From NCBI GenBank assembly GCA_020724465.1, contig DYGX01000005.1, positions 62,001 through 126,000 on the forward strand: a DNA stretch of 64,000 nt, read 5' to 3'. The DNA is from Thermoflexus sp. Its GTDB lineage: Bacteria; Chloroflexota; Anaerolineae; Aggregatilineales; Aggregatilineaceae. Made by a program: the position numbers and the translations under genes. Of the stretch, positions 324-22,373 are shown one piece after another. Numbering within the stretch: the first letter of the stretch is position 1; every line of letters begins with the position of its first letter. A model generated the notes under the pieces. That model had not been told where the DNA came from. It ran no database searches and worked only from the letters and a program-made list of their open reading frames with translations.

Positions 324-410
324 CAGCGCGAATCTCTCCGCTGCTCGGTGGTGGCATGGTTGCAGTCGATCCGCTTCCAATGCGTTAACCCCGGGGTAGG
401 AACGTCGACC

Positions 411-2831: not shown

Positions 2832-2844
2832 AAGCAGAGCGACC

Positions 2845-4212
2845 ATGCGCAAGTTCATTATCGAAGACAACCGCCTGATCGCGCCCTTCAACGAGCCGGC
2901 GCGCGATCTGAGCATCCTCAACAAGCCGCTGAAGATTCACCACGCCGACATTCTGGACGAGGTGATCGGCCCGACCGAGGTCGAGCTGCCGCTGAGCACG
3001 ATTTATGACCTGCCGCATATCGCGCCGGGCCGCGACGAGTGCCTGGTCTACCGCGACAGCCTGTATTTCGATATCGAGTTTCTCAGCGAGTTTGTCGAGC
3101 AGGCGCGCACCAGCGGGCTGCCCAGCCGCGCCGTGCTGCCGGCCAGCGACGCGGCCTGGATGAAATACGCCGTCCCGCTTTCGCGCCTGGAGCCGGTGCG
3201 CGATATGAGCGGCGCGCCGCTGCACTACCCGCTCGACCTGTGGTATTTCCCGTACGGATATGTCGAGCCGCGCCAGTGGCGCGACGTGCCCATCTTCAGC
3301 GACTACCGCGAAAAAGGGTACTACAACGTCCCGGACTCGATGTCGAACCTCAAGCCGGGCGGCCCGCAGGGAACGGCCCAGCGCGACCTTGACCTGACCC
3401 ACCTGCTCACCGAGCGCTCGGCCCTGTCGATCGACAGTTGGGTGCACCTCTACTTCGCCAACATCATCCTCGGCGTGTTTTCGCGCGGGAGCCGCTTCGA
3501 GGAATACCTTTCGCACCACAACCTCTTCGCGCTCAAGGTGCTGTTCCGCGCCATTCTGGAGCAGAAACAGCTTTTGTCGTGCTCCAAGCTCGTCCAGGTG
3601 GGCGAAGGGACGATCATCGATCCCTCGGCGGTGATTCTGGGGCCGACCACCATCGGGCGCGGTTGCTACATCGGCCCCGGCGTGGTGATCGACAACTGCG
3701 TGATCGGGGATTCGGTCAACATCGCGCAGGGCTGCCAGCTCATGCTGAGCGTGGTGGGCAACAACTGCTTTCTGCCGTTCCGCGCCGCGCTGTTCATGAC
3801 GACCCTGATGGAGTACACCATCGTCGCGCAGAACACCTGTCTGCAGATGTGCGTGGTGGGGCGCAACAGCTTTGTCGGCGCCGGGACGACGTTCACCGAC
3901 TTCAACCTGCTGCCCACACCGCTGCGCGCCATGAGCGCGCGGGGCGGGCTGGAAGACTCGGGCCAGCCGGTGTTGGGCGGGTGCGTGGGCCACAACGCCC
4001 GCGTCGGGTCGGGCATGGTGATCATGCCGGCGCGCATGATCGAATCCGACGCGATCCTGATCGCCTCGCCCGACCGGCGCGTGATCGCCAAGAACATCTC
4101 GTACGAGGAGAGCGATCATCACAAGCTGCGCCCGTCGATCGCCCGGCTGCACAAGCGCCGCTACCCGCGCCACGCGGAGTCTGAGGCGGCCTATCTGGAG
4201 GAGTGGGAATAG
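2845..4212 (+). CDS. Left-handed beta-helix (hexapeptide repeat) protein
   Basis: A 455-residue protein. The ATG at 2845 (MRKFIIED) is preferred to an in-frame GTG at 2824 that overlaps the previous stop. The N-terminal 230 residues match no domain I can name. From about residue 250 there are hexapeptide repeats of the form I-I-D-P-S-A / T-I-G-R-G-C / Y-I-G-P-G-V, the coils of a left-handed beta helix, interrupted by long loops. Families with this fold include acyltransferases and the C-terminal half of sugar-1-phosphate nucleotidyltransferases. The N-terminal part lacks the GxGxRL signature of nucleotidyltransferases. A role in acyl transfer next to the hydrolase and the AAR-like reductase is a guess from context. 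Confidence 0.7.
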   Translation: MRKFIIEDNRLIAPFNEPARDLSILNKPLKIHHADILDEVIGPTEVELPLSTIYDLPHIAPGRDECLVYRDSLYFDIEFLSEFVEQARTSGLPSRAVLPASDAAWMKYAVPLSRLEPVRDMSGAPLHYPLDLWYFPYGYVEPRQWRDVPIFSDYREKGYYNVPDSMSNLKPGGPQGTAQRDLDLTHLLTERSALSIDSWVHLYFANIILGVFSRGSRFEEYLSHHNLFALKVLFRAILEQKQLLSCSKLVQVGEGTIIDPSAVILGPTTIGRGCYIGPGVVIDNCVIGDSVNIAQGCQLMLSVVGNNCFLPFRAALFMTTLMEYTIVAQNTCLQMCVVGRNSFVGAGTTFTDFNLLPTPLRAMSARGGLEDSGQPVLGGCVGHNARVGSGMVIMPARMIESDAILIASPDRRVIAKNISYEESDHHKLRPSIARLHKRRYPRHAESEAAYLEEWE

Positions 4213-4295
4213 CGGCGCGGCGCGGCGCCAGGGTTACCCCAATATCGAACGCTCGACGCGTCTTGCGGTCGAAGTGAGTAGAAGACAGAGCTGAC

Positions 4296-5399
4296 GTGAC
4301 TGCACCCGACACCTTCGCCTTCATCATCCACCCGATTGACCCGAAGAAAGACGTCTCGCGCAAGTGGCCGCTGCTCGGCAAGGTGCTGACGGAAGGGCAG
4401 ATCGATTTCTTTTCGCGTTTCTTCCCGCCGGTCTACATCTCGGAGATCACCGGCGTGCGCTCGGTGGCGACCGGTAAGACGATCACCGGCTGGTTCATCG
4501 CCTGCCCCTTTACGCCGAAGACCATGCTGAGCCTGCCGGTCGAGACGGTGTACCGTAAGATCGTGGCGTGCGGGCACAAGGCCGAGGCGCTCGGCGCGCG
4601 CATTCTGGGGCTGGGGGCGTACACCTCGGTAGTGGGCGACGGCGGCGTGACCATCGCGCAGCGGCTGGCGCTGCCGGTGACCAACGGAGACGCGTACACG
4701 ATCTACATGGCGGTCGAGGCGGTGCGCGAAGCCGCCCGCCAGATGGAGATTCCTCTGCCCGGCGCGTCGGCGGCGGTCGTCGGCGCGACCGGCACGATCG
4801 CGGGAGTGTGCGCGCAGATTCTGGCGCGCGAGGTGGGCGAGCTGGTGCTTGTCGGGCGCCGTCCCGATGCGCTCGACGCCGTCCGCGAGCGGTGCGAAGG
4901 CCAGATGGCCCGCGTGCGCACCAGCACCGACATCGCCAGCATCTACCCCTGCGACGTGATCCTGACCGTCACCAGTTCGGTGTCGAGCGTGATCGAGCCG
5001 GAGCATCTCAAGCCCGGCGCGGTGGTGTGCGACGTGGCTCGCCCGCGCGATGTCTCGGTGCGGGTGGCGCAGATGCGCCCGGATGTGCTGGTGATTGAGG
5101 GCGGGATGGTCGAGGTGCCGGGGCCGGTCGATTTTGGCTTCGATTTCGGCTTCCCGCCGGGCAAGTCCTACGCCTGCATGGCCGAGACGATGGCCCTGGC
5201 GCTCGAAGGGCGCTATGAAGATTACAGCGTCGGCAAGCAGATCACGCTGGAGCAGGTCAGCGAGATCGGCGCGATCGCGGCGCGTCACGGCTTCCGGTTG
5301 AGCGGCTTCCGCAGTTTTGAGCGCGCCGTCCTGCCCGAGCAGATCGCCCAGGTGCGCGAGCACGCGCGGGCGGCGCGCCGCCGCCCATCCCCGATTTGA
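4296..5399 (+). CDS. Acyl-ACP reductase (AAR)-like oxidoreductase
   Basis: A 367-residue protein starting at GTG, with an NAD(P)-binding GATGTIAG loop (163-170). The order of motifs follows cyanobacterial long-chain acyl-ACP reductase: a SVATGKTITGWFI stretch (cyanobacteria: SATGKVIHG), LGAYTSVV, NGDAYTIY, VVGATG, and a C-terminal ACMAETM, then KQITLEQV and RHGF. Cyanobacterial AAR reduces fatty acyl-ACP to aldehyde through a thioester on a cysteine in ACFAEAM. The equivalent cysteine here is Cys294. The Rossmann part also resembles shikimate dehydrogenase, so automatic tools may name it so. No aldehyde-deformylating oxygenase is in the window. The substrate is inferred, not shown. Confidence 0.72.
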   Translation: MTAPDTFAFIIHPIDPKKDVSRKWPLLGKVLTEGQIDFFSRFFPPVYISEITGVRSVATGKTITGWFIACPFTPKTMLSLPVETVYRKIVACGHKAEALGARILGLGAYTSVVGDGGVTIAQRLALPVTNGDAYTIYMAVEAVREAARQMEIPLPGASAAVVGATGTIAGVCAQILAREVGELVLVGRRPDALDAVRERCEGQMARVRTSTDIASIYPCDVILTVTSSVSSVIEPEHLKPGAVVCDVARPRDVSVRVAQMRPDVLVIEGGMVEVPGPVDFGFDFGFPPGKSYACMAETMALALEGRYEDYSVGKQITLEQVSEIGAIAARHGFRLSGFRSFERAVLPEQIAQVREHARAARRRPSPI

Positions 5400-5609: not shown

Positions 5610-6518
5610 ATGGGTAAAGGCAGAATCCTCGTTGTCGAAGATGATTTCGATATCTCGAATATGCTGCGCATCTACTTTGGCGGGCAGGGCTATGACGTTC
5701 AGGTCGCCCCGCGCGGCGCCGATGCCCTTATGCTGACGCGCAAGCAGCTTCCGCAGTTGATCGTGCTGGACATCATGCTGCCGGACATGAACGGGTATGA
5801 CGTCTGCCGCGAGCTGCGCTCGACCACCCGCACCAGCCACATCCCCATCATCTTCCTGACGCAGAAGGACGAGCGCAGCGACAAGATCGCCGGGCTGGAG
5901 CTGGGGGCGGACGATTACATCACCAAGCCGTTCGACATCGAAGAACTCAAGCTGCGCGTCAAGAACCAGATCGAGCGCGCCGAGCGGGACAACTACACCG
6001 ATCCCAACAGCGGCCTGCCGAGCAGCTCGCTGATCGAGGAAAAGCTGCGCGATCTCATTCGCGAAACCCAGGTGTGGGCATATCTCGATATTCGCGTCAA
6101 CAACTACGACGCGTTCAAGGATGTCTACGGGTTTGTGGCGGCCAACGAGCTGCTGCGCTTTATGGCGCTGCTGTTGGGCGAGGTGGTGGACGAACTGGGC
6201 ACGCCCGACGACTTTCTCGGCCACGCCGGCAGCGACAATTTCGTGGTGATCACCTACTCGGATCGCCCTCAGGCGCTGGCCGAACGCCTGACGCGTCGCT
6301 TCGCCGAGGGCGTCCAGCAGCATTACTCCTTCATCGATCGCGAGCGCGGGTACCTGCTGCGCGATGACGAGCGGGTGCCGCTGATGTCGCTGGCGGTCGG
6401 CATGATTTCGAACGCCAGCCGCCAGTTTGCGGATATTCGCGAGATCACCGAACTGGCGGCGGAGAACCGCCGGCGTGGCAAGGTGGACGACGACGAGCCG
6501 ATCGCGGCCGAGTGGTAG
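5610..6518 (+). CDS. Response regulator with degenerate GGDEF domain
   Basis: Residues 1-120 are a receiver domain with acidic pocket residues Asp11 and Asp12, phosphoacceptor Asp54 (VLDIMLPD) and Lys106 (ITKPF). Residues 130-295 have a GGDEF-like outline, including the DPNSGLP start, but the signature is GSDNF (207-211) in place of GGDEF, so cyclic-di-GMP synthesis is unlikely. It may bind a nucleotide or a partner. The ATG at 5610 has an AAGGTGGA site upstream. A weak -10 (TATAGT, 5481-5486) lies in the 210-base gap before it. It is followed, 77 bases on, by the giant histidine kinase, the obvious candidate for phosphorylating it. Confidence 0.85.
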   Translation: MGKGRILVVEDDFDISNMLRIYFGGQGYDVQVAPRGADALMLTRKQLPQLIVLDIMLPDMNGYDVCRELRSTTRTSHIPIIFLTQKDERSDKIAGLELGADDYITKPFDIEELKLRVKNQIERAERDNYTDPNSGLPSSSLIEEKLRDLIRETQVWAYLDIRVNNYDAFKDVYGFVAANELLRFMALLLGEVVDELGTPDDFLGHAGSDNFVVITYSDRPQALAERLTRRFAEGVQQHYSFIDRERGYLLRDDERVPLMSLAVGMISNASRQFADIREITELAAENRRRGKVDDDEPIAAEW

Positions 6519-6595: not shown

Positions 6596-9500
6596 ATGAT
6601 AGAAGTCTACCTGATCATCACCGGACTGATTTTTGCCGCCTGGATCGCGCTGCTGGTGCGGCAGGCGCGGCGCGGCGCGGACGCTGATTGGGCTGCCAGC
6701 GCGCCGATTGTGCCGGTGAGCCTGGTTGAAGGGGACGAGGCGGTCATCGTCGCCGAAGAGCGCGGGCGCGTGGTTTATGCCAACGATCAGGCCCGCGCCT
6801 GGTTTGGTGCCGACGGCGGTACGCCCAGCCTGGCGTTGATGGCGCAGATGGTCCAGCCCGCCGATGCCTTCCTTGACCTTTTCGCCAACGCCGGGCACAC
6901 GACAATCCGGCTGGGGCCGCGCCGTCTGGAAGCCGTCTCGCACCCGATCCCCGGTCCCGACGGGCCGCGCGTTGTGGTGGTGATGCGCGAGATGACCGGT
7001 GCCGCGCGCCAGGCAGCCACCGATTTCGACCCCCTGCGCGCGTTGATGCTTCAAACCGACATCGCCGTGACGGTCGGCGCCGGGCAGGCGCTGGGGCCGA
7101 CGATTGACGGTCTGCTGCGCATCATCGAGCAGGCCGTGCCTTATGATGCGGCCGAGGTCCTGCTGTGGCACGCAGAATCGCAGACGCTGCGCACGGTGGG
7201 GCGCACGGCCAAACTGTCGGTGACCGGCTCGCTGATCCCGCCGGAAGATCAGGAGCAGGTCGCCTGCGCGGTGGGCGAGGGCTACAGCGGGTGGATCGCG
7301 CTCTATCGCCAACCCCTGCTGATCCACGACGCCACGGCGCGGCCCGACTATGCCCTGCGCCCCGGCCAGCCGCCGTACCAGAGCTTTCTGGGCATTCCGC
7401 TGCTGCTCGATGACCGGCTGGTGGGCACGCTGGAACTGACTCACCGCGCGCCGGATGCCTTCACGCAGCAAGACGTCGCCCTGCTCCAGGCGGTCGCCGG
7501 GCAGATCGTCGCCGCGGTCGAAGGGGCGCGTCTGCGGGCCGAGCAGGCGGCGCGGGTGCACGAGCTGGCCGGTTTGCAACACATCTCCGGCGCGATCAGC
7601 CAGCTTGGGGACCCGCCGCAGTTGTTCGCCCAGCTCACGCAGCGGATCGCGCATCTGGCCGACGCGGAGCTGTGCGGCATCCTGCTCTACGACGCCGACG
7701 AGGAGACCTATCGCAGCCAGGCCCCGTTTTACGGCGTGCCGGAGTCCCTGGTGCGCGGTCACCGCCTGAACATGACACCCGGCAGCGCGTTGTACGAGGC
7801 GCTGATGCACCGGCCCTGGTGGTACACCAACGATCCGGATTCACCCGTGACGGCTGCGCTGGGTTTCGACGACATCCAGGCGACCATCCCGCTGCGGCGC
7901 GTTGCCATCGTCCCGATGGTGATGGGGACGCGCCGGGTCGGGCTGCTGCTGGTCGCCAACAAGCACGGCGGCCAGCGGTTCAACGACGGCGATATGCGCG
8001 CGCTGATCGCCTTTGGCAACCAGGCCGCGATGGTGGTGGAGAACGCGCGCCTGTACGCCGACGCGCAGCGCCGCTCGCGCGAGCTGGGCGGGCTGCAACA
8101 GATCGCCCAGGCGATCGGGGCGCTGCGCAGCCCGGAGCAGCTTTACGGGCAGATCACGCAGCGAGTGGCCGCCCTGATGCAGGTCGAGATGTGCGGCGTG
8201 CTGCTCTACGATCCCCAGGCGCACGTGCTGGTCAGCCAGCGTCCCTTCTTCGGGCTGGAAGACGAGGAAAGCGTCAGCTTCTACCAGCTTCCGTCGCCGC
8301 CGGGCAGCGTGATCTACGAGCTGTGGCAGGACCGCCCGATGTGGTACTGCAACGATCTGCGCCGCGATCCGCTGGTCGGCGATACCGATCTGCTGCGCAT
8401 GGCGAACGCCGTCGGCATCCGCCAGTTAGCACTGGCGCCCCTGATCGTGCGCGGGACGCGGCGCGGCGTGATCCAGGTGGCGAACAAGCGCGGCGGCGAG
8501 GATTTCACCGAAGAAGATGCCCGCATTCTATCGCTGTTTGCGGGGCAGGTGGCGATCTTGATCGACAACGCCCAGCTTTACGGCGAGATGCAGCGCCGCA
8601 CACACCAGGCCGAGGGCCTGCGCGTCATCACCGAGTTCGCTTCTCAGGCGCGGCCCCTGCACGAGACGACCGAGCAGATTCTGATCGCCATCGCCAACCT
8701 GTACGAAGTCGAGCGCGTCAGCCTGGCGCTGGTGGATGACGAGCGCGGGCAGTTGGTCTTCGAGCCGGCCAACACCTGGGGCGCCGAGCTTGACGAACCG
8801 CTGGCGGTCGATCTGGTGGGGCCGGACGCGGCGCACAGCGTGCTGGTGACGCGCCGCCCGGCCATCAGCGTCGCGGGCAACGTGCCCGCGCCCTACCGTG
8901 CCGTGGCGAAGCGGCTGGGCTGGCGCGATGTCGTGCAGGTGCCGCTGGTGATTCGCGACCAGGCCATCGGCGAACTGGCGATTGCCAACCGCACCAGCGG
9001 CGAGCCATACCTGGATTCGGACCTGCAGCTTTTGGGCGCCATCGCCACGCAGATCGCGGCGATGCTGGATCGTCTGCGGCTCTATCAGACAACCGATGAA
9101 ACGCTGCGCGCGCGCGTCGAGACGCTTGAGGCGCTCGGCCAAATCTCGCGCAGCCTGCATCAGACGCAGGAAATCGAGCGCATTCTCGACGAGGTGCGCA
9201 GTGCCGCGCTGCGCTCGACCGGGGCGCGGGGCGTCAGCATTGTCTTGTTGACGCCGCCGGAAGACTGGCCCGCGCCGGATGATCCGCTGGTGGAGCGGCG
9301 CTTCGGCGAGACGCAGACGCTGGGCGAGCTGGCGCCCATCGAGCGGGCGGCCCTGGACGCCGGCGAGCTGGTGGCGGTGGATGATTACGCGGCGAGCGTG
9401 TGGCTGCCTGTACCGGTCCGCGCGCAGTCGGCGGTTTGCGTGCCGCTGGCGGCGGACGATGTGCCGCTTGGCGTGCTGCACCTGTACAGCCTGGAGCCGC

Positions 9501-12500
9501 ACGCATTCGACGCGCGGGCGCTCGGCTTTGTGTCCGCGCTGGCCGCGGAAACCTCTCTGGCGGTCGCCAACGCGCGCCGCTTCCAGGCCCAGCTCGAAGC
9601 CAACCGCCAGCTTCGCATCCGCGCCGACCGTATGGATCGCATTTTCGAGGTGGGCGAGCTGTTCCGCCGGGGCGCCTCGCTGGAAGAACTGCTGGCCGAG
9701 GTGGCCGAGGGCGTGCGCGAGACGGTGGGGTTCAACTCGGTGCTGATCAGCCTCGTCGACGAGGACGAGGGGGTTCTGCGCCGCACGGCGTATGCCGGGC
9801 TGTCGCAGGCCACCTTCGAGCAGATGCGCCGCGTCACGCCGCCGCTGGCCCAGGCCCGCAGCCTGATGCAGCCGGAATATCAGGTCAGCCACAGCTATTT
9901 CCTGCCGGCGGAAGGGGCCGAAGCGCTGATCGAAGGGCTGCCGACGCTGCAGGTGATTGAGGAGCGGATGGGTCCCGGCGCGCGGGCGTGGCACCCGGAC
10001 GACCTGCTGCTGGTGCCGTTCTACGGCGCGGGCGGGCGGCTGCTGGGGCTGATGAGCGTGGATGAGCCGCGCTCGGGCCGCCGTCCCGATCAGGCTACGG
10101 TCGAGGCGCTGGAAGTCTTCGCGGGGCAGGCCGCCTTCAGCATCGAGAACTACCGCCTGATCGCGCGCATCCAGCAGGAAGCCGAAGCCACCCGGCGCGA
10201 GCGCGACCGCCTGGCGCAACTTCACCTGGTTGCCAGCGAGATCCAGCGCGCGGCGGACGTTCCCGCGCGCTTGCAGGTCGTCGCCGATGGGATTCACCAG
10301 GCCGGGTGGGGCAAGGTCTTCATTACGCTGCGCGACGAGCGCCTGGAGCCGACCGCGCTGATCCAGGCCGGTTTCACCCCCGAAGAAGCGAGCCGGCTCG
10401 ACGTCCAGCCTGGCAAGGTCTGGCGGGCGTGGATCAGCGATCTGGCCTTCCACGAGCTGAAGCTCGGCGCGGGCTACTACCTGCGCTACGACCGCCCCTG
10501 GGTGCGCCAGCATGTCTACGAGGGCCGGCCGCCCGTCCCGGCGGAAGTCGGCCCTGGCGAGTGGCACCCGGAAGACACGCTCTATTTGACGCTGGTCGGA
10601 CAGGATCAGAAGCGCATCATCGGCATCATCGGGATGCGCGATCCGGTGGATGGGCGTGTGCCGACCGCGTCATCGCTCCAGCCGTTCGAACTGTTCGCGT
10701 CGCAGGCGGCGGCAGCCATCGAGACGACCCGCCTGTATCTGGAGACGGTCCGCGCCGCCGAGCAGGAAGCCCGCCTGAACGCGCTGATGGAGGCGGTTTC
10801 CAGCTCGCTGCAGCCGGAAGCCATCATCGAGGCGATCGCGGTTGGGCTGCAGCAGATGATCCCGTTCACCCGGCTGCACGTCGCGCTGGGCGATCCGGAC
10901 ACGCCGCTGCTCGACGTGTGGCGGGCGCTCGTCGCGCTGGACGGTGCGATCGCGGTCGAACGGGGCGAGCCGCTGCCCGCCGAAGACACCGCCTTGCGGC
11001 TGGCCTACGACGAGCGCGAGCCGCGCATTTACGCGCTGGAGCGCGACGAAGCGACGCGCGCGCGGCTGGCGGACCTGCGCGCCTGGTACGGCGCCGGCGA
11101 GCGCAGCAGCCTGATTGTGCCGATGATCGCCGGCGGCCAGCCCATCGGCGCGCTGCACCTGGGCAGCGAGCTGGAAGGCGCGCCCGGCTTCCGCGAGAAC
11201 CTGACGCTGATCCAGCGTCTGGCGAACCTGTCGGCGGTGGCGCTCGACAACGCGCGCCTGTTCGCGGCGGCCCAGCAGCGCGCCGCCGAACTGGACGCTC
11301 AGGCGCGGCGGCTGGGCCTGATCAACCGCGTCTCGACGCGCGTCAGCGAATCGCTTGACCCCGAAGAAATCTACCAGACCGCCCTCCACGAGCTACAGGC
11401 TGTGCTCGGCGCGCAGTACGGCGGCGTGGTGATCTACGAGGACGCCACGACAGGCCGCCTGGTGCTCGACACGCATCCCGAGGCCAGCGCTGAGGCCGAC
11501 GTGCGCATCACCCTGGTCGACAACCCCTCGGTCGAGCAGGTGCGCCGCACCCAGCGCCCGCTGGTTTCACGGGATGTGATGGACGACCCGCGCTTCGTGC
11601 CGGATCGTCCTGTTCTGGGCGCGCGCGGCACCCGCGCTCTGATGGTCATTCCGCTGATCGTCGGCGACGAGGTGATCGGCTCGATCGGGCTGGACTTCAC
11701 CGAGCCGCGCACCTTCACCGAGGCCGAGATCGAGCTGGCCGGGACGATCGCCAGCCAGGTTTCGCTGGCGCTGGACAAGGCCCGCCTGCTGCGCGAGGCC
11801 GAGCAGCGCGCCCGCGAGCTGGATCAGCAGGCGCAGCGTCTGGCGTTCCTCAACCGCGTCTCGGCCAAACTGACCGGCACGCTGGACCCGGACGAGCTGT
11901 ACCGCATCGTGCTGACCGAGCTGCAAGAGGCGCTCGGCGTGCAGTACGGCGGCCTGATGCTTATCCAGGAAGACGGCGCGATCTCGCGGCTGGTGCTCAG
12001 CACGCACCCGTTCGACGTGGACGCCCCGGCCGATATCACCGTGCCGGTGCAGGGCAACCCGATCGCGGAGTACATCCTCAGCACGCACCAGCCGTTTGTG
12101 GCTGAAGACCTGCTCAACGACCCGCGCTTCGAGCCGATGTGGGAAATCCAAGAGGCGCGCGGCGTGCGCGCAATGCTGATCGTGCCGGTGATCATGGGGG
12201 GCCGCGTGATCGGCACGATTGGGCTGGACTCGAACGTGCCGCGCCGCTTCACCGAGGCGGAGATCGAGCTGGCGATGACGACCGCCAACCAGGCCGCGAT
12301 CGCCATCGAAAAGGCGCGCCTCTTTACCGAAGCTCAGCAGCGCGCGATCGCGCTCGACGAGCAGGCGCAGCGCCTGGCCCTGGTGAACCGCGTCTCGACC
12401 CGCCTGGCGCAGACCCTCGACCCGCAGGAACTCTACCGCATTGTGCTGGCGGAGCTGGTCGAGGCGCTGGACGTGCAGCTTGGCGGCCTGGTCTTGTTCG

Positions 12501-15500
12501 AGAGCGAAACGATGGGCCGGCTGGTGCTCAGCTACCCGTTCGAAGCCGCCACACCCGATCTCACCTTGCGGCTGGAAGGCAACCTGTCGATCGAGCACGT
12601 CCGCAAGACGCACCGCCCGCTGGTGTCGGTCGATGTGCTCAGCGACCCGCTGTTCGAGGCGGCCTGGGATGTGCTGCGCCAGCGCGGGACGCAGTCGCTG
12701 ATGATCGTCCCGCTGCTGGTCGGCGACACGGTGATCGGCACGATCGGGCTGGACTCGACCGTGCGGCGCGAGTTCACCGACGCGGAAGTCGAGCTGGTGC
12801 AGACGATCGCCAGCCAGGCTTCGCTGGCCGTCGAGAAGGCACGCCTCTACAACGAGACGCTCGGCCTGACGATTTTCAACCAGGCAGTGGTCGAGTCGAT
12901 CCGGCAGGGGATCATCGTGCTGGACCGCGACCTGCACGTCCGCCGTGTCAACCGTTTCATGATCGAGCATTACGGCTGGGGGACGGACGCGGTGGGCCAG
13001 CCGTTGTTCGCCTACCGGCCCGACTACGAGCAGTTTCTGCGCCAGCCGATCGCTGTGGCGCTGGAGCGGGGCGAGCCGCAGGCGCAGTTCGAGGTGGAGC
13101 GCGGCGGCGGCAACGGCCACCGCTCGATCCGTAACTATTACGTCTATCCGATGCAGGAAGGCACGACCGTAACCGGCATCGTGCTGCTGGTCGAAGACGT
13201 GACGGAACGCGCCCTGCTCGAAGCCGACCTCAGCTCGCGCGCGATGCAGATGGCGGCGCTGTCCGAGGTGTCCAGCCAGATCACCTCGACGCTGGAAGCC
13301 GACGAGGTGGTGGAGCTGATCCTCGACGCGCTTGACCGCGTGATCCCCTACGACGGCGTGTCGCTCTGGCTGCGCGAGCCGGAGCGCGAGGAACTGCGGA
13401 TCGTGGCTGCGCGCGGCTACCGCGACCCGGATTCGCCCGATGCCGACGAGCTGGTCGGCCTGAGCGTCGAGATCGCCTATAGCCCGCTGTTCCGCGAAAT
13501 GGCCGAGCGGGCGCAGGTGATCAACGCGGGGGATGTGAGCGCGGGCGACGAGCGTTTCCCCTACGGCTCGGCGGCGATCTATAAGAACTGGCTCGGCGCG
13601 CCGCTGATCAGCAAGGGCCGGGTGGTGGGCGTGCTGACGCTGGAGAAGCGCGAGCCGCACTTCTACACCGCGCTCCACGAGCAGCTTGCGCTGACCTTCG
13701 CCAACCAGGCGGCGGTCGCGCTGGACAACGCGCAGCTTTTCGAGGAGACGCGCGCCCGCGCGATCGCGCTCGACGAGCAGGCGCAGCGCCTCGCGCTGCT
13801 CAACCGCGTGTCGCTGGCGCTGGCCCAATCGCTCGATATGGAGAACATCCTGGAGATCGCCCTGCGCGAAACCGCGATCGCGCTCGATATCTCCGAAGGC
13901 TCGGCCATGCAGATCGAGCATCCCAGCCAGATTGGCCACGCCGTTGTTGATTATCCGCGCGGCGATATGCCGCCGGACAAGGTCATTGACCTGAGCGCAA
14001 GCCCGATCTTCGAGCGCGTGCGCGACAGCCTGATCCCGCTGGTGATCGAGAACGTCTCCGCCGACCCGCACCGCGACGAGCTGCGCGCCATGATGCGCCG
14101 CGACGACGTGTCCAGCACGATGCTCGTGCCCCTGGTCATCGGCGGGATCGTGATCGGCATCCTGCGGCTGGACTCGGTCGAGCCGCGCCAGTTCTCGATG
14201 GCCCAGATCGAGCTGGCGCAAACCATCGCCAGCCAGGCGGCGATCGCGGTCCAGAACGCCTCGCTGTTCGAGCAGTCGTCGGTCCGCACGCGCGAGCTTG
14301 AGACGCTCTTTGAATCGGCCCAGGCCACCGCCATGACGCTCGACCTGGACGAGGTGACCCGGCGCGTGACCGAGCAGGTCTTCAACGCGCTGCGGGCCGA
14401 TACCTGCGCGGTCTATCTGTGGGATGACGTCAACGACTGGCTGGAACTGCGCGGCGCGCTTCGCGCACAGGATGAGCAGGTGCCCGCCCGGTTGGGCGAG
14501 CGCGTCAACCTGGCCGAGTATCCGCTGCGCCAGCGCGCACTCGACGAGCGGCGCCTGATTGTGGCGCGCGCGGGCGACCCCGACCTGCCGCCGGGCGAAG
14601 CGGCACTCTTCACCCGCCACCAGTCGGCCAGCCGCCTGCTTCTGCCGCTGGTCGTCAACGAGGTGTCGATCGGGCTGGTCGAGGTCGAGACGCTCGACCC
14701 CATGCGCTTCTTCAAATCCGAGGAACTGCGTCTGGCGCGGACGATGGCGAGCCAGGCCGCGATCGCGATCGAGAACGCGCGCCTGCAAACCGAGACACGC
14801 CGCACGGTCGAGGAACTGTACATCATCAACGATCTCTCGGCGGCGCTGTCCTCGGCGACGAGCCTCGACGAGCTGCTGGCCGTGCTGGACGCGCAGCTTC
14901 CGCGCCTGACCAAAGCCGAGGCGATCTACGTGGCGCTGTACGACCGCGCGAGCGAGACGGTAACCTTCCCGCTGGCGACCTCGGTGCGCGAGGGGCGCGC
15001 GCTGGATCTGCCGCCGCGCCCGCTCGGCAACGACGAGTTCTCGGTCATCATCCGCCGCCAGGTCCCGCTGCTGCTGGTGGGCGATCGCGTCCGGGCGGTG
15101 CAGAGCAACCTGGGGATCCAGACGATCCTGCCGCCCGAGGCGCGGGCCTTTGTCGGCGTGCCGCTCTTCGCGGGCGAGCAAATCATCGGCGCCCTGGCCG
15201 TGCGCGACGACGACGACCCGCTGGCATTCAGCAGCGACGATCAGCGGCTGCTCACGACGGTCGCGTCGCAGCTTGGCGTGGCGATTCAGAGCGCGCGCTT
15301 GCTCGAACAGCTTCGCGAGCTGGCCGAAGACCTGGAGCGGCGCGTCGAGGAGCGCACTGCCGAGCTGGACCGCGAGCGCCAGCAGCTTTCGACCCTCTAC
15401 CAGATCACGACCGAGCTGGCGACCAGCCTGGACATCCAGCGGCTGCTCAACCGCGCGCTGGAGATGGTGGCCGAGGCGACCGGCGCCACCCAGGGCACGA

Positions 15501-17065
15501 TCTTCGCCCTCGATCCGGTCAGCGGGCGGCTGGAGATGCGCGCGCGCATCGGGTGGCCGCTGGATGAGGCCGCCCTCGAAGACGCGCCGCACTCGCTGGC
15601 TCAAGACGAAGGGCTGGCCGGTTGGGCGGTCCAGCAGCATCAGAATGTGATCGTCGACGACGTGCAGCAGGACCCGCGCTGGCTGCGCCTCTCACCGGCG
15701 GACGATCTGGCGCGCGCGGCGCTGGTCGCGCTGATCGCCGCGGCGGACGAGGTCCTGGGCGTGATGATGCTGACCAGCACACAGCCGGGTGCCTTCACCG
15801 CCGATCATTTGCGGCTGGTCAGCGCCTCGACCAACCAGATCGCCAACGCCATGAACAACGCCGAGCTGTACAGCCTGATCCGCGATCAGGCTGAGCAGTT
15901 GGGCGCCATGCTGCGCCAGGAACAGGTCGAGGCGACCAAGAGCGCCGCCATTCTGGACTCGGTGGCGGATGGGGTGATGGTCGCCGACCAGACGGGCCAG
16001 GTGATCGGCTTTAACTCCACCGCCGAGCGCATTCTGGGGCTTCCGGCCAGCCAGGTGTTGGGGCAGCAGACGTCCGCCGTGGCCGGGCTGTACGGCAGCA
16101 GCGGGCGCTGGCTGGAGCGCGTCAACCACTGGCTGGAGCATCCGCACGAGTACCAGCCGGGCGAGTTTCTCGAAGAGCGCCTGGAGCTTGAGGATGGGCG
16201 CGTGATCAGCGTGCGCCTCTCGCCGGTGTACCTGGGCGACCAGTTCTTGGGGACCGTGTCGGTCTTCCGCGACATCACGCGCGATGTCGAGGTCGATCGC
16301 CTCAAGAGCGAGTTTGTGGCGACCGTCTCGCACGAATTGCGCACGCCGATGACCTCGATCAAGGGCTATGCCGATCTGCTGCTGCTCGGCGCGGCGGGCG
16401 CGATCTCCGAACAGCAGCAATACTTCCTTGAGGTGATCAAACAGAACGCGGATCGCCTGAGCATCCTGGTTAACGATTTGCTCGACATCTCGCGCATCGA
16501 CCAGCAGCGCGTCGAGCTGAAGTTTGACGCGGTCCCGGTGAGCGTGGTGTTGCAGGGGGTGCTGTCTCATCTGCGCGGGCGCAGCGAGGACGAGCGCCGC
16601 GATATGAACCTGGTTCTCGATTTGCCCGATGATGTCGACCTGACGGTGTGGGCTGACGAAGACAAGCTGGCGCAGATCATGACCAACCTGGCGGACAACG
16701 CCTTCAACTACACGCTGCCGGGCGGGACGGTAACGCTGGCGGCGCGCTCCGGCCCGGTCGGTGGTCGCGTGACGCTGACGGTATCCGACACCGGGATCGG
16801 CATTCCCCCCGAGATCGGCGATCGCGTCTTCGAGCGGTTCTTCCGCGGCGACGAGGGGCAGGAGCTGGTCATGGACACGCCTGGCACCGGGTTGGGGCTG
16901 GCGATCGTGCGCGAGTACGTGGTGATGCTTCACGGGCGCATCTGGTTCGAAAGCGAGGTCGGCAAGGGGACGACGTTCTATGTCGAGCTGCCCGCATCTG
17001 CCGCCGAGCCGCCCGCCGGTGAGGTTCAGCCGGACGCCCAGGCCAGCCCGCTCACCAGGGAGTAG
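6596..17065 (+). CDS. Giant hybrid sensor: about 16 GAF domains, PAS, histidine kinase
   Basis: A protein of 3489 residues in one uninterrupted frame. Residues 3-21 form a single membrane segment or signal anchor, followed by a PAS-like region (about 40-140). About sixteen GAF domains come next, each ending in a helix of the form A-x-Q-x-A-x-A-I-E-N-A-R-L. A PAS domain sits between GAF 11 and GAF 12 (about 2090-2210), and a second PAS precedes the kinase (about 3115-3230). The kinase core has His3246 in SHELRTP, an N box near 3362 (NLADNAFNYT), a G1 box DTGIGIPP and a G2 box GTGLGLAI. It should autophosphorylate and pass phosphate to the receiver proteins encoded on both sides. Typical multi-GAF kinases are much shorter. 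The ligands are unknown. Confidence 0.93.
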   Translation: MIEVYLIITGLIFAAWIALLVRQARRGADADWAASAPIVPVSLVEGDEAVIVAEERGRVVYANDQARAWFGADGGTPSLALMAQMVQPADAFLDLFANAGHTTIRLGPRRLEAVSHPIPGPDGPRVVVVMREMTGAARQAATDFDPLRALMLQTDIAVTVGAGQALGPTIDGLLRIIEQAVPYDAAEVLLWHAESQTLRTVGRTAKLSVTGSLIPPEDQEQVACAVGEGYSGWIALYRQPLLIHDATARPDYALRPGQPPYQSFLGIPLLLDDRLVGTLELTHRAPDAFTQQDVALLQAVAGQIVAAVEGARLRAEQAARVHELAGLQHISGAISQLGDPPQLFAQLTQRIAHLADAELCGILLYDADEETYRSQAPFYGVPESLVRGHRLNMTPGSALYEALMHRPWWYTNDPDSPVTAALGFDDIQATIPLRRVAIVPMVMGTRRVGLLLVANKHGGQRFNDGDMRALIAFGNQAAMVVENARLYADAQRRSRELGGLQQIAQAIGALRSPEQLYGQITQRVAALMQVEMCGVLLYDPQAHVLVSQRPFFGLEDEESVSFYQLPSPPGSVIYELWQDRPMWYCNDLRRDPLVGDTDLLRMANAVGIRQLALAPLIVRGTRRGVIQVANKRGGEDFTEEDARILSLFAGQVAILIDNAQLYGEMQRRTHQAEGLRVITEFASQARPLHETTEQILIAIANLYEVERVSLALVDDERGQLVFEPANTWGAELDEPLAVDLVGPDAAHSVLVTRRPAISVAGNVPAPYRAVAKRLGWRDVVQVPLVIRDQAIGELAIANRTSGEPYLDSDLQLLGAIATQIAAMLDRLRLYQTTDETLRARVETLEALGQISRSLHQTQEIERILDEVRSAALRSTGARGVSIVLLTPPEDWPAPDDPLVERRFGETQTLGELAPIERAALDAGELVAVDDYAASVWLPVPVRAQSAVCVPLAADDVPLGVLHLYSLEPHAFDARALGFVSALAAETSLAVANARRFQAQLEANRQLRIRADRMDRIFEVGELFRRGASLEELLAEVAEGVRETVGFNSVLISLVDEDEGVLRRTAYAGLSQATFEQMRRVTPPLAQARSLMQPEYQVSHSYFLPAEGAEALIEGLPTLQVIEERMGPGARAWHPDDLLLVPFYGAGGRLLGLMSVDEPRSGRRPDQATVEALEVFAGQAAFSIENYRLIARIQQEAEATRRERDRLAQLHLVASEIQRAADVPARLQVVADGIHQAGWGKVFITLRDERLEPTALIQAGFTPEEASRLDVQPGKVWRAWISDLAFHELKLGAGYYLRYDRPWVRQHVYEGRPPVPAEVGPGEWHPEDTLYLTLVGQDQKRIIGIIGMRDPVDGRVPTASSLQPFELFASQAAAAIETTRLYLETVRAAEQEARLNALMEAVSSSLQPEAIIEAIAVGLQQMIPFTRLHVALGDPDTPLLDVWRALVALDGAIAVERGEPLPAEDTALRLAYDEREPRIYALERDEATRARLADLRAWYGAGERSSLIVPMIAGGQPIGALHLGSELEGAPGFRENLTLIQRLANLSAVALDNARLFAAAQQRAAELDAQARRLGLINRVSTRVSESLDPEEIYQTALHELQAVLGAQYGGVVIYEDATTGRLVLDTHPEASAEADVRITLVDNPSVEQVRRTQRPLVSRDVMDDPRFVPDRPVLGARGTRALMVIPLIVGDEVIGSIGLDFTEPRTFTEAEIELAGTIASQVSLALDKARLLREAEQRARELDQQAQRLAFLNRVSAKLTGTLDPDELYRIVLTELQEALGVQYGGLMLIQEDGAISRLVLSTHPFDVDAPADITVPVQGNPIAEYILSTHQPFVAEDLLNDPRFEPMWEIQEARGVRAMLIVPVIMGGRVIGTIGLDSNVPRRFTEAEIELAMTTANQAAIAIEKARLFTEAQQRAIALDEQAQRLALVNRVSTRLAQTLDPQELYRIVLAELVEALDVQLGGLVLFESETMGRLVLSYPFEAATPDLTLRLEGNLSIEHVRKTHRPLVSVDVLSDPLFEAAWDVLRQRGTQSLMIVPLLVGDTVIGTIGLDSTVRREFTDAEVELVQTIASQASLAVEKARLYNETLGLTIFNQAVVESIRQGIIVLDRDLHVRRVNRFMIEHYGWGTDAVGQPLFAYRPDYEQFLRQPIAVALERGEPQAQFEVERGGGNGHRSIRNYYVYPMQEGTTVTGIVLLVEDVTERALLEADLSSRAMQMAALSEVSSQITSTLEADEVVELILDALDRVIPYDGVSLWLREPEREELRIVAARGYRDPDSPDADELVGLSVEIAYSPLFREMAERAQVINAGDVSAGDERFPYGSAAIYKNWLGAPLISKGRVVGVLTLEKREPHFYTALHEQLALTFANQAAVALDNAQLFEETRARAIALDEQAQRLALLNRVSLALAQSLDMENILEIALRETAIALDISEGSAMQIEHPSQIGHAVVDYPRGDMPPDKVIDLSASPIFERVRDSLIPLVIENVSADPHRDELRAMMRRDDVSSTMLVPLVIGGIVIGILRLDSVEPRQFSMAQIELAQTIASQAAIAVQNASLFEQSSVRTRELETLFESAQATAMTLDLDEVTRRVTEQVFNALRADTCAVYLWDDVNDWLELRGALRAQDEQVPARLGERVNLAEYPLRQRALDERRLIVARAGDPDLPPGEAALFTRHQSASRLLLPLVVNEVSIGLVEVETLDPMRFFKSEELRLARTMASQAAIAIENARLQTETRRTVEELYIINDLSAALSSATSLDELLAVLDAQLPRLTKAEAIYVALYDRASETVTFPLATSVREGRALDLPPRPLGNDEFSVIIRRQVPLLLVGDRVRAVQSNLGIQTILPPEARAFVGVPLFAGEQIIGALAVRDDDDPLAFSSDDQRLLTTVASQLGVAIQSARLLEQLRELAEDLERRVEERTAELDRERQQLSTLYQITTELATSLDIQRLLNRALEMVAEATGATQGTIFALDPVSGRLEMRARIGWPLDEAALEDAPHSLAQDEGLAGWAVQQHQNVIVDDVQQDPRWLRLSPADDLARAALVALIAAADEVLGVMMLTSTQPGAFTADHLRLVSASTNQIANAMNNAELYSLIRDQAEQLGAMLRQEQVEATKSAAILDSVADGVMVADQTGQVIGFNSTAERILGLPASQVLGQQTSAVAGLYGSSGRWLERVNHWLEHPHEYQPGEFLEERLELEDGRVISVRLSPVYLGDQFLGTVSVFRDITRDVEVDRLKSEFVATVSHELRTPMTSIKGYADLLLLGAAGAISEQQQYFLEVIKQNADRLSILVNDLLDISRIDQQRVELKFDAVPVSVVLQGVLSHLRGRSEDERRDMNLVLDLPDDVDLTVWADEDKLAQIMTNLADNAFNYTLPGGTVTLAARSGPVGGRVTLTVSDTGIGIPPEIGDRVFERFFRGDEGQELVMDTPGTGLGLAIVREYVVMLHGRIWFESEVGKGTTFYVELPASAAEPPAGEVQPDAQASPLTRE
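11313..12860 (+). repeat. Tandem duplicated GAF units 9-11 inside the giant kinase
   Basis: Three consecutive units of about 530-540 bases start near 11313, 11840 and 12375. They share NRVS near the start, L-D-P-x-E-L-Y, RLVL, GxIGLD, and the same connecting helix (A-L-D-x-Q-A-Q-R-L). The linker DNA near 12343 is repeated with a 34-base identity near 13757, before GAF 13. This points to recent internal duplication of GAF-linker units. Confidence 0.8.
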
Positions 17066-17076
17066 CGAAAGCACGT

Positions 17077-17460
17077 ATGGCGAAAATTCTCATCGCAGAA
17101 GACGAACGCGATATTCGCGATCTGATCGAGTTCACGCTGAAATACGCGGGACACGAGGTCATCAAGGTGCGGAATGGCGCCGAGGCGGTCGAGATCGCGC
17201 CGCAGGTCAAGCCGGACCTGATCGTGCTCGACGTGCGCATGCCGCGCATGACCGGCTACGAAGCCTGCCGCCTGTTGAAGGAGCGCGACGAAACGCGGCA
17301 CGTCCCGATCGTGTTCCTTTCGGCCAAGGGGCAGCAGAGCGAAATGGAGTCCGGGATCGACGCCGGAGCCTACGATTACATCCTCAAGCCGTTCGCGCCG
17401 GACACGCTCAACCGGCGCATCGCCGAAATCCTGACCAAGTTCGGCATCGACGGAGCGTGA
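17077..17460 (+). CDS. Receiver-only response regulator (CheY-like)
   Basis: A 127-residue stand-alone receiver domain. The acidic pair is in AEDE (8-10), the phosphoacceptor is Asp52 (VLDVRMP) and the conserved Lys104 is in ILKPF. No output domain is present. The gene begins 11 bases after the giant kinase stop, so it is almost certainly its cognate partner or a phosphate shuttle between it and other regulators. Confidence 0.92.
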   Translation: MAKILIAEDERDIRDLIEFTLKYAGHEVIKVRNGAEAVEIAPQVKPDLIVLDVRMPRMTGYEACRLLKERDETRHVPIVFLSAKGQQSEMESGIDAGAYDYILKPFAPDTLNRRIAEILTKFGIDGA

Positions 17461-17505
17461 CATGAGCCGCTGCCGAACCTGTGTCCCGCGCTCGCAGAGT
17501 TTGCC

Positions 17506-18519
17506 ATGAGCGCCATCACCGTCGATTACGACCTGGTGCACTACGAGGTTCTGGGCCGCGGTCGCCCGGTGATCCTGGTGCACGGCTGGCTCGGATCGTG
17601 GCGCTACTGGATCCCCGCCATGCAGCAGATCAGCGTCAAATACCGCACCTATGCGCTCGATCTGTGGGGCTTTGGCGAGAGCGGCAAGGACCCGCGCCGG
17701 TATGCCTTCGACGCCCAGGTGCGCCTGCTCGATCATTTCATGGAGCGGATGGGGATCGCCAAGGCGGCGCTGGTCGGGCATGGGCTGGGCGCCGCGGTGG
17801 TCACGCGCTTTGCGCTGCAGGCTCCGGACCGTGTGCCGCGCCTGATGGCGGTCAGCCCGCCGCTGTTCTGGATACCGCCCGCGCCGGAGACGGCGCCGAC
17901 GCCGCCTGCCCCTTCAGCCAGCACTCCACGCGCTTCGGGTGATGGCGTGGTGGACAGCGAAGCGGAGACAATCGGCCTGCGCACCGAGGATATGGCGGCG
18001 CGGCTGCGCGCGGCGCTGGAACGCGAAGCCGCGCAGCGGGACGCCGCGAGCCAGGCGCCGCCCGCCGCCGACCCTCAGCCGGCTGCGCCCCGCGCCAATC
18101 CCTTGCGCGCGCGGCTTGATACGCTGGACCCGGTCGCGCTGCTTCACCAGCACGTCGAGGCGGGCGCGGACCTCAACAAGCTGCTGGTCGAGGTGCGCAA
18201 AGCCGATCCGCTCGCCGTGGCGCAGACAATCGAGACGCTGGCCGGGGTGGACACGCTGCGCGAGCTGCAACGGCTGGCGATGCCGGTTCTGGCCGTCTAT
18301 GGGGGCGGAGACACACTGCTCCCCAAGCCGGACGACGCGATGCTGGCCGCGCTGCGTGACGGGAACCGGCCCTTCCACGCGATTGAGTTGCCGGGGCTGC
18401 GTCACTTCCCGATGCTGGATGATATTGCCACCTTCAACCGCCTGCTGATGGACTTCCTCGAAGCGGCTGACCCGACCCGCGTCACGGTCAAGGAGCGCTG
18501 GGAGCGGCGGGTACGCTAG
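17506..18519 (+). CDS. Alpha/beta hydrolase paralog lacking the nucleophile
   Basis: A 337-residue alpha/beta hydrolase fold closely related to the protein at 1995-2831 (HGWLGSW, RTYALDLWGFGESG, FMERMGI). The nucleophile elbow reads GHGLG, so Gly93 replaces the catalytic serine. The C-terminal LRHFPML still carries the His. An insertion rich in Ala and Pro (about residues 125-205) separates the cap from the core. The protein is probably not an esterase; a binding, signalling or scaffold role is an inference. It follows the receiver gene by 45 bases, likely in the same transcript. A sequencing error is unlikely, because all three bases of the codon would not change at once. Confidence 0.82.
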   Translation: MSAITVDYDLVHYEVLGRGRPVILVHGWLGSWRYWIPAMQQISVKYRTYALDLWGFGESGKDPRRYAFDAQVRLLDHFMERMGIAKAALVGHGLGAAVVTRFALQAPDRVPRLMAVSPPLFWIPPAPETAPTPPAPSASTPRASGDGVVDSEAETIGLRTEDMAARLRAALEREAAQRDAASQAPPAADPQPAAPRANPLRARLDTLDPVALLHQHVEAGADLNKLLVEVRKADPLAVAQTIETLAGVDTLRELQRLAMPVLAVYGGGDTLLPKPDDAMLAALRDGNRPFHAIELPGLRHFPMLDDIATFNRLLMDFLEAADPTRVTVKERWERRVR

Positions 18520-18685
18520 CGGGCGCGCCCTGCTTCCGCTTCGCTCAGGATGTGCTCAAGCCATTGCGCCTCAAGTTGATTGAGTTCCAGGCAGTCGGTG
18601 GGCCGGACGCAAAGCTATCCCCCTGCTTGCATGCATGAGAAAGTGCTCAGTCTCAGCTATATCCTCTACCCGCGCCGCTGATCGC
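18520..18685. other. Intergenic stretch without recognised features
   Basis: Between the pseudo-hydrolase stop and the thiamine promoter I see only a GC palindrome (GGGCGCGCCC near 18521-18530) that could help end transcription. No gene, repeat or binding site can be supported. Confidence 0.4.
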
Positions 18686-18714
18686 TTGGCAGAACCCCGC
18701 CGCGTTGCTATAGT
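18686..18714 (+). promoter_or_regulatory. Promoter of the thiamine operon
   Basis: TTGGCA (18686-18691) and TATAGT (18709-18714) are 17 bases apart, and TGC directly precedes the -10 (extended -10). It lies just upstream of the TPP aptamer, so the leader RNA would start near 18721. Confidence 0.72.
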
Positions 18715-18730
18715 AAATGGTAACATCAGT

Positions 18731-18830
18731 TCGCCCGGGGGAGCTTGGGTTAGCCAGGCTGAGAGGTGCATCCGCCAGACGATGCCGACCCCAGGACCTG
18801 ATCCGGGTAATTCCGGCGTAGGGAGGAGCG
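18731..18830 (+). ncRNA. TPP riboswitch (THI element)
   Basis: The conserved aptamer core is present in order: GGGGGAGC, GGCTGAGAG (18758-18766), a variable P3 arm with GTGCATC paired to GATGCC, then ACCTGATCC, GGGTAATTCCGGC and GTAGGGA. These are the pyrimidine- and pyrophosphate-sensing segments known from thiC/thiM-type riboswitches. It controls the downstream thiamine pyrophosphokinase and transporter genes. Binding of thiamine pyrophosphate should favour the terminator that follows. Confidence 0.95.
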
Positions 18831-18847
18831 GCATGGCACATGACGTG

Positions 18848-18881
18848 AAACCACTCGCTGCGCCGCGGGTGGTTTTTGTTT
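18848..18881 (+). terminator. Riboswitch expression-platform terminator
   Basis: AAACCAC (18848-18854) pairs with GTGGTTT (18869-18875) around a GC-rich loop, followed by a T-rich run. It lies between the TPP aptamer and the thiN start, so the riboswitch probably works by premature transcription termination. Confidence 0.75.
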
Positions 18882-18906
18882 AGGACGATCGCGCGCAGGG
18901 AGCAGA

Positions 18907-19557
18907 ATGCGGGCGCTGGTGTTTGCGAACGGGGAACTGAACGATGGCCCGGCGGTGCAGGCCGCGCTGGACGGCGCGCGCGACGCCCTGGTCATCGCAG
19001 CGGATGGCGGGGCGCGTCTGGCGCTGGCCTGTGGCCGGACGCCCGCGCTGGTGATCGGCGATTTCGATTCGCTGTCGGACGCGGAAGTTGAGCACTTGCG
19101 CGAATTGGGCGCGGCCATCGAGCGTGTCGCTGCCGAGAAGAACGAAACCGACCTGGAGCTGGCGTTGCTGGCGGCGGCACAGCGCGACGCGGACCCGATC
19201 GATGTGCTCGGCGCGGCGGGTGGCCGGCTCGACCAGTTGCTCGCCAACCTCTACCTGCTCGCCATGCCCAGCCTGCGCGACCGAGCGGTGCGCATCGTAG
19301 ACGGGCGTCAGACGCTGTGGCTGATCGGCCCCGGACGGCACCGGATCTCCGGCGCGCCCGGCGACACCCTCTCGCTGATCCCGCTCACGCCCGAAGCGGC
19401 GGGGATCACCACCGAGGGGTTGCAGTACCCGCTGCGCGGGGAGTCACTTTACATCGGCGCGGCGCGCGGCGTGAGCAACGTTTTGCTCGGCAGCGAGGCA
19501 CAGGTGACGCTCGGCGCGGGGCAGCTTTTCGTTGTGCATACGGTGGGGCGAGCGTGA
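18907..19557 (+). CDS. thiN: Thiamine pyrophosphokinase
   Basis: A cytoplasmic enzyme of 216 residues that transfers pyrophosphate from ATP to thiamine, giving thiamine pyrophosphate. Family signatures are AADGG (31-35), GDFDS (51-55) and KNETDLELAL (78-87), with the C-terminal all-beta thiamine-binding part ending GQLFVVHT. The ATG at 18907 has a GGGAG site upstream. It is the first gene after the riboswitch, and its stop overlaps the start region of the permease gene. Co-transcription with a precursor transporter suggests that the cell salvages thiamine or its pyrimidine part. Confidence 0.93.
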   Translation: MRALVFANGELNDGPAVQAALDGARDALVIAADGGARLALACGRTPALVIGDFDSLSDAEVEHLRELGAAIERVAAEKNETDLELALLAAAQRDADPIDVLGAAGGRLDQLLANLYLLAMPSLRDRAVRIVDGRQTLWLIGPGRHRISGAPGDTLSLIPLTPEAAGITTEGLQYPLRGESLYIGAARGVSNVLLGSEAQVTLGAGQLFVVHTVGRA

Positions 19558-19559
19558 CG

Positions 19560-20423: not shown

Positions 20424-20468
20424 GCGTCGATCGATGTGATGGAGTGAGGGTTTGGAAAGGAGCGGATC

Positions 20469-21533: not shown

Positions 21534-21560
21534 CGGCGCGGGAGACGGTGCGGCCTTTTG

Positions 21561-22362
<802 letters not shown>

Positions 22363-22373
<11 letters not shown>

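Follow-up and report, generated by a model that had tools for sequence, protein, structure and literature searches.

Characterised HisKA-type histidine kinases with GAF and PAS input carry one to a few GAF domains. The kinase encoded in the window (the whole stretch of 64,000 nucleotides that was analysed) shares with this class a HisKA-HATPase_c core with H, N, G1 and G2 boxes, a cytoplasmic GAF/PAS input and adjacent receiver genes, but it differs from the characterised members in having 16 GAFs and no extracellular sensor and in belonging to a conserved operon of its own. Its size is notable and is shared by its family. More useful than the size is the finding, within a conserved operon, of a natural length series of one orthologous kinase, from 4 to 17 GAFs, which makes it testable why signalling proteins gather many GAFs and whether each one senses.

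An operon joining a kinase to a small GTPase is known from the actinobacterial conservons, which encode the CvnA kinase, the CvnB roadblock protein, CvnC, the CvnD GTPase and sometimes the GAF protein CvnF (PMC13343842). Conservons have a roadblock gene (CvnB) and no response regulator, whereas the cluster described here has two REC genes and no roadblock gene; moreover, the GAFs, which form a separate protein (CvnF) in conservons, sit here within the kinase. No roadblock gene was found in the cluster or on its contig, and the Robl_LC7 matches lay on contigs C27, C49 and C51. The locus was consequently not assigned to the conservons, given the lack of a roadblock gene on the contig and the presence of two REC genes.

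A second known arrangement places an MglA-like GTPase gene beside a PATAN (DUF4388) gene, as reported for some members of MglA groups 1 and 5 (PMC4316618, Wuichet and Sogaard-Andersen 2014). The same two genes adjoin in the window, but as part of a larger conserved set that includes the giant kinase, an acyl-ACP-reductase-like enzyme and hydrolases. Many Chloroflexota encode a very large sensor in linkage with a small GTPase and lipid-type enzymes, and we found no description of such a linkage in the literature.

Domain architecture of the kinase

The features of the locus are collected in Table 1. The kinase has the domain order TM, PAS1, GAF1-11, PAS2, GAF12-16, PAS3, HisKA and HATPase_c, with a single predicted N-terminal membrane anchor. 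Pfam searches matched GAF_2 to 15 stretches (whole-protein E 4.5e-196), GAF to 15 and GAF_3 to 14, and a profile built from the kinase's own GAFs recovered 16, including the diverged GAF7 that Pfam GAF_2 misses. Each repeat is therefore recognised as belonging to the GAF superfamily, 15 of them through GAF_2 and all 16 through the own profile. In a genome-wide scan, this one gene accounted for 15 of the 95 GAF_2 matches.

Two PAS domains were matched by Pfam (PAS2 and PAS3). The third, PAS1, is backed by its predicted fold and by matches to phytochrome PAS-GAF structures: an AlphaFold model of the N-terminus, built on an alignment of 19 sequences, comprises a membrane helix (residues 2-33), a PAS-like fold (49-132) and then GAF1, and its best solved matches were phytochrome PAS-GAF modules at 11-14% identity. 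As in HisKA-type kinases, the HisKA domain contains the phospho-acceptor H box of the DHp (FVATVSHELRTP), and HATPase_c contains an N box (NLADNAFNY), a G1 box (DTGIGI) and a G2 box (GTGLGL). The first-pass annotation, made from the letters alone, had described a single-pass sensor with sixteen GAFs, two or three PAS domains and a full kinase core. This description holds, with the number of PAS domains now put at three, and the profiles gave 15-16 GAFs rather than far fewer.

Table 1. Features of the giant kinase locus, with positions in the window; residue numbers refer to the kinase.
Feature	Position	Strand	Remarks
DUF4388 (PATAN) protein	348-1310	+	
MglA/Arf-like small GTPase	1377-1937	+	TPGQ replaces the usual DxxGQ G3 motif
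Alpha/beta hydrolase A	1995-2831	+	
Hexapeptide-repeat (left-handed beta-helix) transferase-like protein	2824-4212	+	
Acyl-ACP reductase / PigE thioester reductase relative	4296-5399	+	Pfam Shikimate_DH
Response regulator, REC + degenerate GGDEF (REC/dGGDEF)	5610-6518	+	302 aa; GSDNF
Giant sensor histidine kinase	6596-17065	+	3,489 aa, uninterrupted from ATG start to stop codon
N-terminal membrane helix	6599-6691	+	residues about 2-32, predicted
PAS1	6740-6991	+	residues about 49-132; diverged, fold only, Pfam silent
GAF1-GAF4	7031-9106	+	residues 146-837
GAF5	9107-9604	+	residues 838-1003; position also found in 4-GAF versions
GAF6	9614-10183	+	residues 1007-1196; long GAF, W..[DE]D.L motif, slow evolving
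GAF7	10193-10759	+	residues 1200-1388; missed by Pfam GAF_2
GAF8	10748-11284	+	residues 1385-1563
GAF9-GAF11	11294-12871	+	residues 1567-2092; duplication block
PAS2	12890-13213	+	residues 2099-2206, Pfam
GAF12-GAF16	13232-15892	+	residues 2213-3099
PAS3	15944-16279	+	residues 3117-3228, Pfam
Kinase core	16304-16996	+	HisKA 3237-3303 (FVATVSHELRTP), HATPase_c 3354-3467 (Pfam)
Single-domain response regulator (REC)	17077-17460	+	127 aa, 11 bp 3' of the kinase
Alpha/beta hydrolase B	17506-18519	+	
Thiamine pyrophosphokinase	18907-19557	+	frequently the following gene, perhaps linked only incidentally

GAF number across Chloroflexota

An ortholog search in related Chloroflexota matched the kinase in 40 of 41 genomes, the window's own genome counted among the 41, and the unbroken frames of this set were mostly about 2,400-3,670 aa long. 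Two orthologs of the window's family exceed the kinase described here (3,673 and 3,662 aa) and have 17 GAFs each. The neighbouring REC/dGGDEF gene served as a marker for kinase loci and, at the thresholds used, was found in 43 of 120 genomes of the class and 32 of 201 of the phylum. Kinases beside it elsewhere in the class had 4, 5, 6, 7, 10, 11, 12 or 13 GAFs. Giant GAF kinases adjacent to it were also observed in three genomes of other classes, which we take to be Chloroflexus aurantiacus, Herpetosiphon aurantiacus and Roseiflexus RS-1, with 13, 17 and 9 GAFs respectively. Altogether, ortholog GAF number ranges from 4 to 17 in the phylum with gene context kept, and five orthologs have 17. 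The count of 16 had been called extreme in the first-pass annotation. It is indeed high, near the top of the series, but it is not singular, since 17 GAFs are also reached by orthologs within the window's own family and in a different class-level group of the phylum. We found no literature on Herpetosiphon GAF kinases or on giant GAF proteins in Chloroflexota, and no close relative in the plasmid collection.

Two loci have unusual frames. At L161 (G289, 6792-19501), the REC/dGGDEF gene precedes two consecutive GAF kinases, with frames 1,213 and 2,767 aa long, a possible gene duplication or split. At L074 (G028), the giant kinase region lies in several frames, as either sequencing error or decay would produce.

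Evolution of the GAF array

Orthology of the GAF positions was assessed with a tree of 257 GAFs and with position-specific profiles, which gave concordant results. Within the window's family, GAF1-8 and GAF12-16 each have an ortholog at the same position, and for most of these GAFs the correspondence extends across the order. GAF9-11 are close paralogs on the tree, and this block varies in copy number within the family: one copy in G009, two in G004, G005 and G010, three in the window and four in G003 and G011 (one of the four in G011 being only 29% identical). The order's other families have 0-1 copies, and one genus lacks the block together with PAS2 and GAF12. Recent variation consists mainly of copies inserted between GAF8 and PAS2 (1-4 in most of the family), and we infer one active duplication site there.

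In the 4-GAF versions, the domains correspond mostly to positions 5, 6 and 16 plus one from the middle of the array. Across most of the phylum, GAF5, GAF6 and the final repeat (GAF16 in the window) can be recognised; GAF6 and the final repeat are identifiable also in the C. aurantiacus-like and H. aurantiacus-like genomes, and GAF16 in nearly all orthologs. Identity within the family is 69-79% for GAF7, which is among the most conserved positions, 68-80% for GAF12 and 64-73% for GAF6; the fast positions GAF1 and GAF5 show 44-50% and 42-51%. Because its W..[DE]D.L..P motif is conserved across the phylum, GAF6 is the first candidate for a common sensor. On the REC/dGGDEF tree the GAF count crosses 12 at least 8 times, these crossings being approximate and gain not told apart from loss on a quick tree with long branches. 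The array probably grew from a short ancestor of about 4 GAFs by repeated internal in-frame duplication, separately in several lineages.

These data bear on what the chain is for. It might act mainly as a mechanical rod or spacer, keeping the kinase core at a distance from its membrane anchor, with only a few GAFs sensing. The location of the anchor at one end and of the kinase at the other, the long continuous helices predicted between GAFs (see below) and the variation in GAF number from 4 to 17 are all compatible with this; a spacer, however, is expected to swap or homogenise its units, and instead most positions are one-to-one orthologous over the order and evolve at position-specific rates, as the GAF5 and GAF7 identities illustrate. 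We consider a mainly mechanical role rather unlikely. The first-pass annotation had offered many ligands or a long signal rod as alternatives, which are not exclusive: the predicted helices favour a rod-like chain, and the fixed orthologous positions and unequal rates speak against a pure spacer.

Constructive neutral growth, in which in-frame GAF duplications were tolerated, most added copies are nonspecific and their count is functionally meaningless, seems to us just as improbable as the spacer. The repeated changes in count (at least 8 across the 12-GAF line), the 1-4 copies held at the duplication site within one family and the genus without the GAF9-11 block, PAS2 and GAF12 agree with it, but purifying selection acts over the kinase gene, and GAFs 1-4, 7, 8 and 13-15, which lie outside the 4-GAF core, have been kept as orthologs across the order with no decay. 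Our preferred reading, an integrator kinase with several inputs, is set out below.

Predicted structure and ligand motifs

A fragment comprising GAF5-8 was folded as a monomer with 17 aligned sequences, giving a mean pLDDT of 85.7 and a pTM of 0.44 (modest global confidence). In this model, helices of 52, 53 and 45 residues pass from one GAF into the next, and its best solved matches were the tandem GAFs of PDE5, PDE6 and CyaB2 (3LFV, 8UGS and 1YKD) and full-length phytochromes. The prediction, which concerns the monomer and leaves dimer geometry aside, supports a chain in which the GAFs are strung along continuous helices of about 50 residues. In PDE5/PDE6 and the cyanobacterial adenylyl cyclase CyaB2, adjacent GAFs are likewise joined by a long connecting helix, but these proteins have two GAFs and a PDE or cyclase output, whereas the protein described here has 16 GAFs and a kinase output. 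Of the 14 linkers, only 2 showed clearly significant heptad periodicity, and for this reason a parallel coiled-coil rod is not claimed; prokaryotic tandem GAFs can be antiparallel (PMC1592074).

A phmmer search of the GAFs against solved structures (E 1e-8) returned essentially kinase cores only, with one weak hit to a GAF-PHY chain, and solved structures therefore gave no hint of a ligand. The complete NKFDE motif (N-K-x(n)-F-x3-D-E) was not found in any of the kinase's GAFs: in GAF2 and GAF3 it reads NK..F...D and lacks its last E, and in GAF4 it reads NR..Y...D. Cyclic-nucleotide GAFs were rejected on account of this incomplete motif.

The matches of the N-terminal model to phytochrome PAS-GAF structures could suggest a phytochrome-type photoreceptor in which PAS1-GAF1 binds bilin and the remainder relays. 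These matches are at fold level only (11-14% identity), the kinase has six cysteines in 3,489 residues, C224 of GAF1 is not conserved, and the Cys-His bilin site expected of phytochromes and cyanobacteriochromes is absent from all of its GAFs. With no cysteine site in the kinase, a bilin photoreceptor was rejected, and we regard this role as very improbable.

Selection and assembly

The giant kinase is real, selected and well conserved, neither an artefact nor a one-off. Its dN/dS was 0.010/0.181 (0.055) against the same-genus contig L009 and 0.119/0.670 (0.18) against L010, ratios that indicate purifying selection. The first-pass annotation had read the lack of stops over 10.5 kb as proof of selection. 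That argument fails at 68.5% GC: because of this composition and of a spurious 1,357-aa antisense frame inside the gene, the open frame alone is weak evidence, and selection is instead established by dN/dS and by the conservation of orthologs, which occur throughout the order. Although the domain array is repetitive and the draft genome consists of 56 contigs, a collapse or misassembly of tandem GAFs into one over-long frame, a concern raised at the outset, has a negligible probability and is excluded for practical purposes, as no exact repeat in the gene exceeds 35 bp, the GAF-sized repeats reach a DNA identity of about 74% at most, L009 (from a separate MAG assembly) matches the last 3,128 residues, from residue 362 onwards, with no indel, and single-contig or few-contig genomes carry ortholog arrays of similar size.

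Gene neighbourhood

The conserved operon around the kinase had been missed in the first-pass annotation. The order REC/dGGDEF, kinase, REC, alpha/beta hydrolase is kept through much of the class, and many Anaerolineae clusters add a PATAN protein, an MglA-like GTPase, an acyl-ACP-reductase-like enzyme, a hexapeptide transferase and alpha/beta hydrolases. The REC/dGGDEF protein is roughly 55-85% identical among Anaerolineae orthologs, whose motif is mostly G-x-D-N-F or GGDDF; the GG(D/E)EF signature is absent from the protein of the window, and GGDEF does not occur among the ortholog motifs listed. The GTPase is MglA-like by its Arf/Ras Pfam hits and by the Thr at the position of the G3 Asp, and its solved relatives include the Arf GTPase 8OUL and MglA 3T12. 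The enzyme at 4296-5399 scored below the cut-offs of the TIGR04058 long-chain acyl-ACP reductase model (119.7 vs 449.7 bits) and of the PigE model (218.7 vs 850), and it was matched by PDB 6JZQ (E 1.1e-30); by these scores it appears to be a relative, not a member, of these enzymes.

Long upstream flanks were examined in 12 genomes. The PATAN-GTPase-hydrolase block was present in seven of them; in the other five (G023, G024, G025, G030 and G006) no GTPase/PATAN block was detected close to the kinase. The GTPase is present at 15 further loci of the class. An automatic synteny tally, being biased by the length of the flanks, was left out of these frequencies. Where present, it is 69-92% identical and is the most conserved member of the cluster, above the kinase. 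The orthologs of other classes resemble the window in having a hexapeptide gene upstream, REC/dGGDEF followed by the giant GAF kinase and a hydrolase downstream, but their kinases differ in GAF composition. In Chloroflexia-like genomes only this core was seen, the Herpetosiphon-like genome also retaining the second REC, and no GTPase/PATAN/acyl-reductase block was found in the fetched stretches of the Chloroflexus/Herpetosiphon-like genomes. Because it was not found in these or in the five genomes above, the GTPase/PATAN block is not an obligate neighbour of the kinase.

A second, paralogous REC/dGGDEF gene (41% identical) was detected in the same genome at L170 (G000:C51, 5738-9319). It is flanked on one side by a Roadblock/LC7 (MglB-type) gene and on the other by a frame of 651 aa, which starts with REC and carries a GAF and an apparent kinase region; L170 is another small-GTPase-type signalling locus of this genome.

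Proposed function

We propose, with somewhat more confidence than doubt, that the protein is a membrane-tethered, multi-input cytoplasmic integrator kinase. From its sequence, the chain of 16 GAFs and 3 PAS domains would feed a functional-looking HisKA core. Different GAFs, chiefly GAF6 with GAF5, GAF7 and GAF16, may bind or sense different cytoplasmic cues (putative ligands), the continuous helices of the predicted structure would pass the conformational change towards the kinase, and the inputs would set its kinase/phosphatase balance. Adjacency suggests that phosphate goes to the REC/dGGDEF and REC proteins of the same operon. Because neither regulator has a DNA-binding domain and the GGDEF is degenerate, both would probably act by protein contact, the most likely partners being the MglA-like GTPase and the PATAN protein encoded nearby, together with the cluster's lipid/envelope enzymes. 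The controlled process could then concern polarity, the surface or envelope lipids.

Against this model stand the non-universal GTPase/PATAN block, the pTM of the monomer model and the few linkers with heptads. It draws support from the complete kinase core, the orthologs in 40 of 41 genomes, the neighbours conserved across the class and purifying selection; from GAF positions that are orthologous across the order and the 5-6-x-16 layout of 4-GAF versions; and from the inter-GAF helices, the tandem-GAF fold, the conserved GTPase, the second, Roadblock-adjacent REC/dGGDEF gene and the known PATAN-MglA neighbourhoods. We hold the integrator role at this strength, and regard a GTPase output of the system as doubtful, because the ligands are putative and the GTPase link is not universal. 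Equally tentative is the wider idea that Chloroflexota have an undescribed phosphorelay-to-GTPase system, in which a GAF-chain kinase would signal through a degenerate-GGDEF receiver to an MglA-like GTPase and envelope-lipid enzymes, the number of GAFs being tuned between lineages by in-frame duplication.

Other genes at and near the loci

Downstream of the giant kinase, the window encodes an ordinary PAS-GAF histidine kinase of 739 aa (24056-26275). Thiamine pyrophosphokinase, a THI5/NMT1-like binding protein and an ABC ATPase lie in a row (18907-22373), likely a set for thiamine-precursor uptake and salvage. At L064 (G020, 2401-4551), the REC/dGGDEF match is in two pieces about 1.2 kb apart, resembling a gene interrupted or lengthened by an insertion. 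The cluster of family f34 contains an inserted gene for a V4R-domain (small-molecule binding) protein (L123, 16067-16690). At L115, the cluster is preceded, a few kb upstream, by a gene for a SMODS-associated NUDIX protein (Sa_NUDIX, 17382-17999), whose family has been connected with anti-phage signalling.
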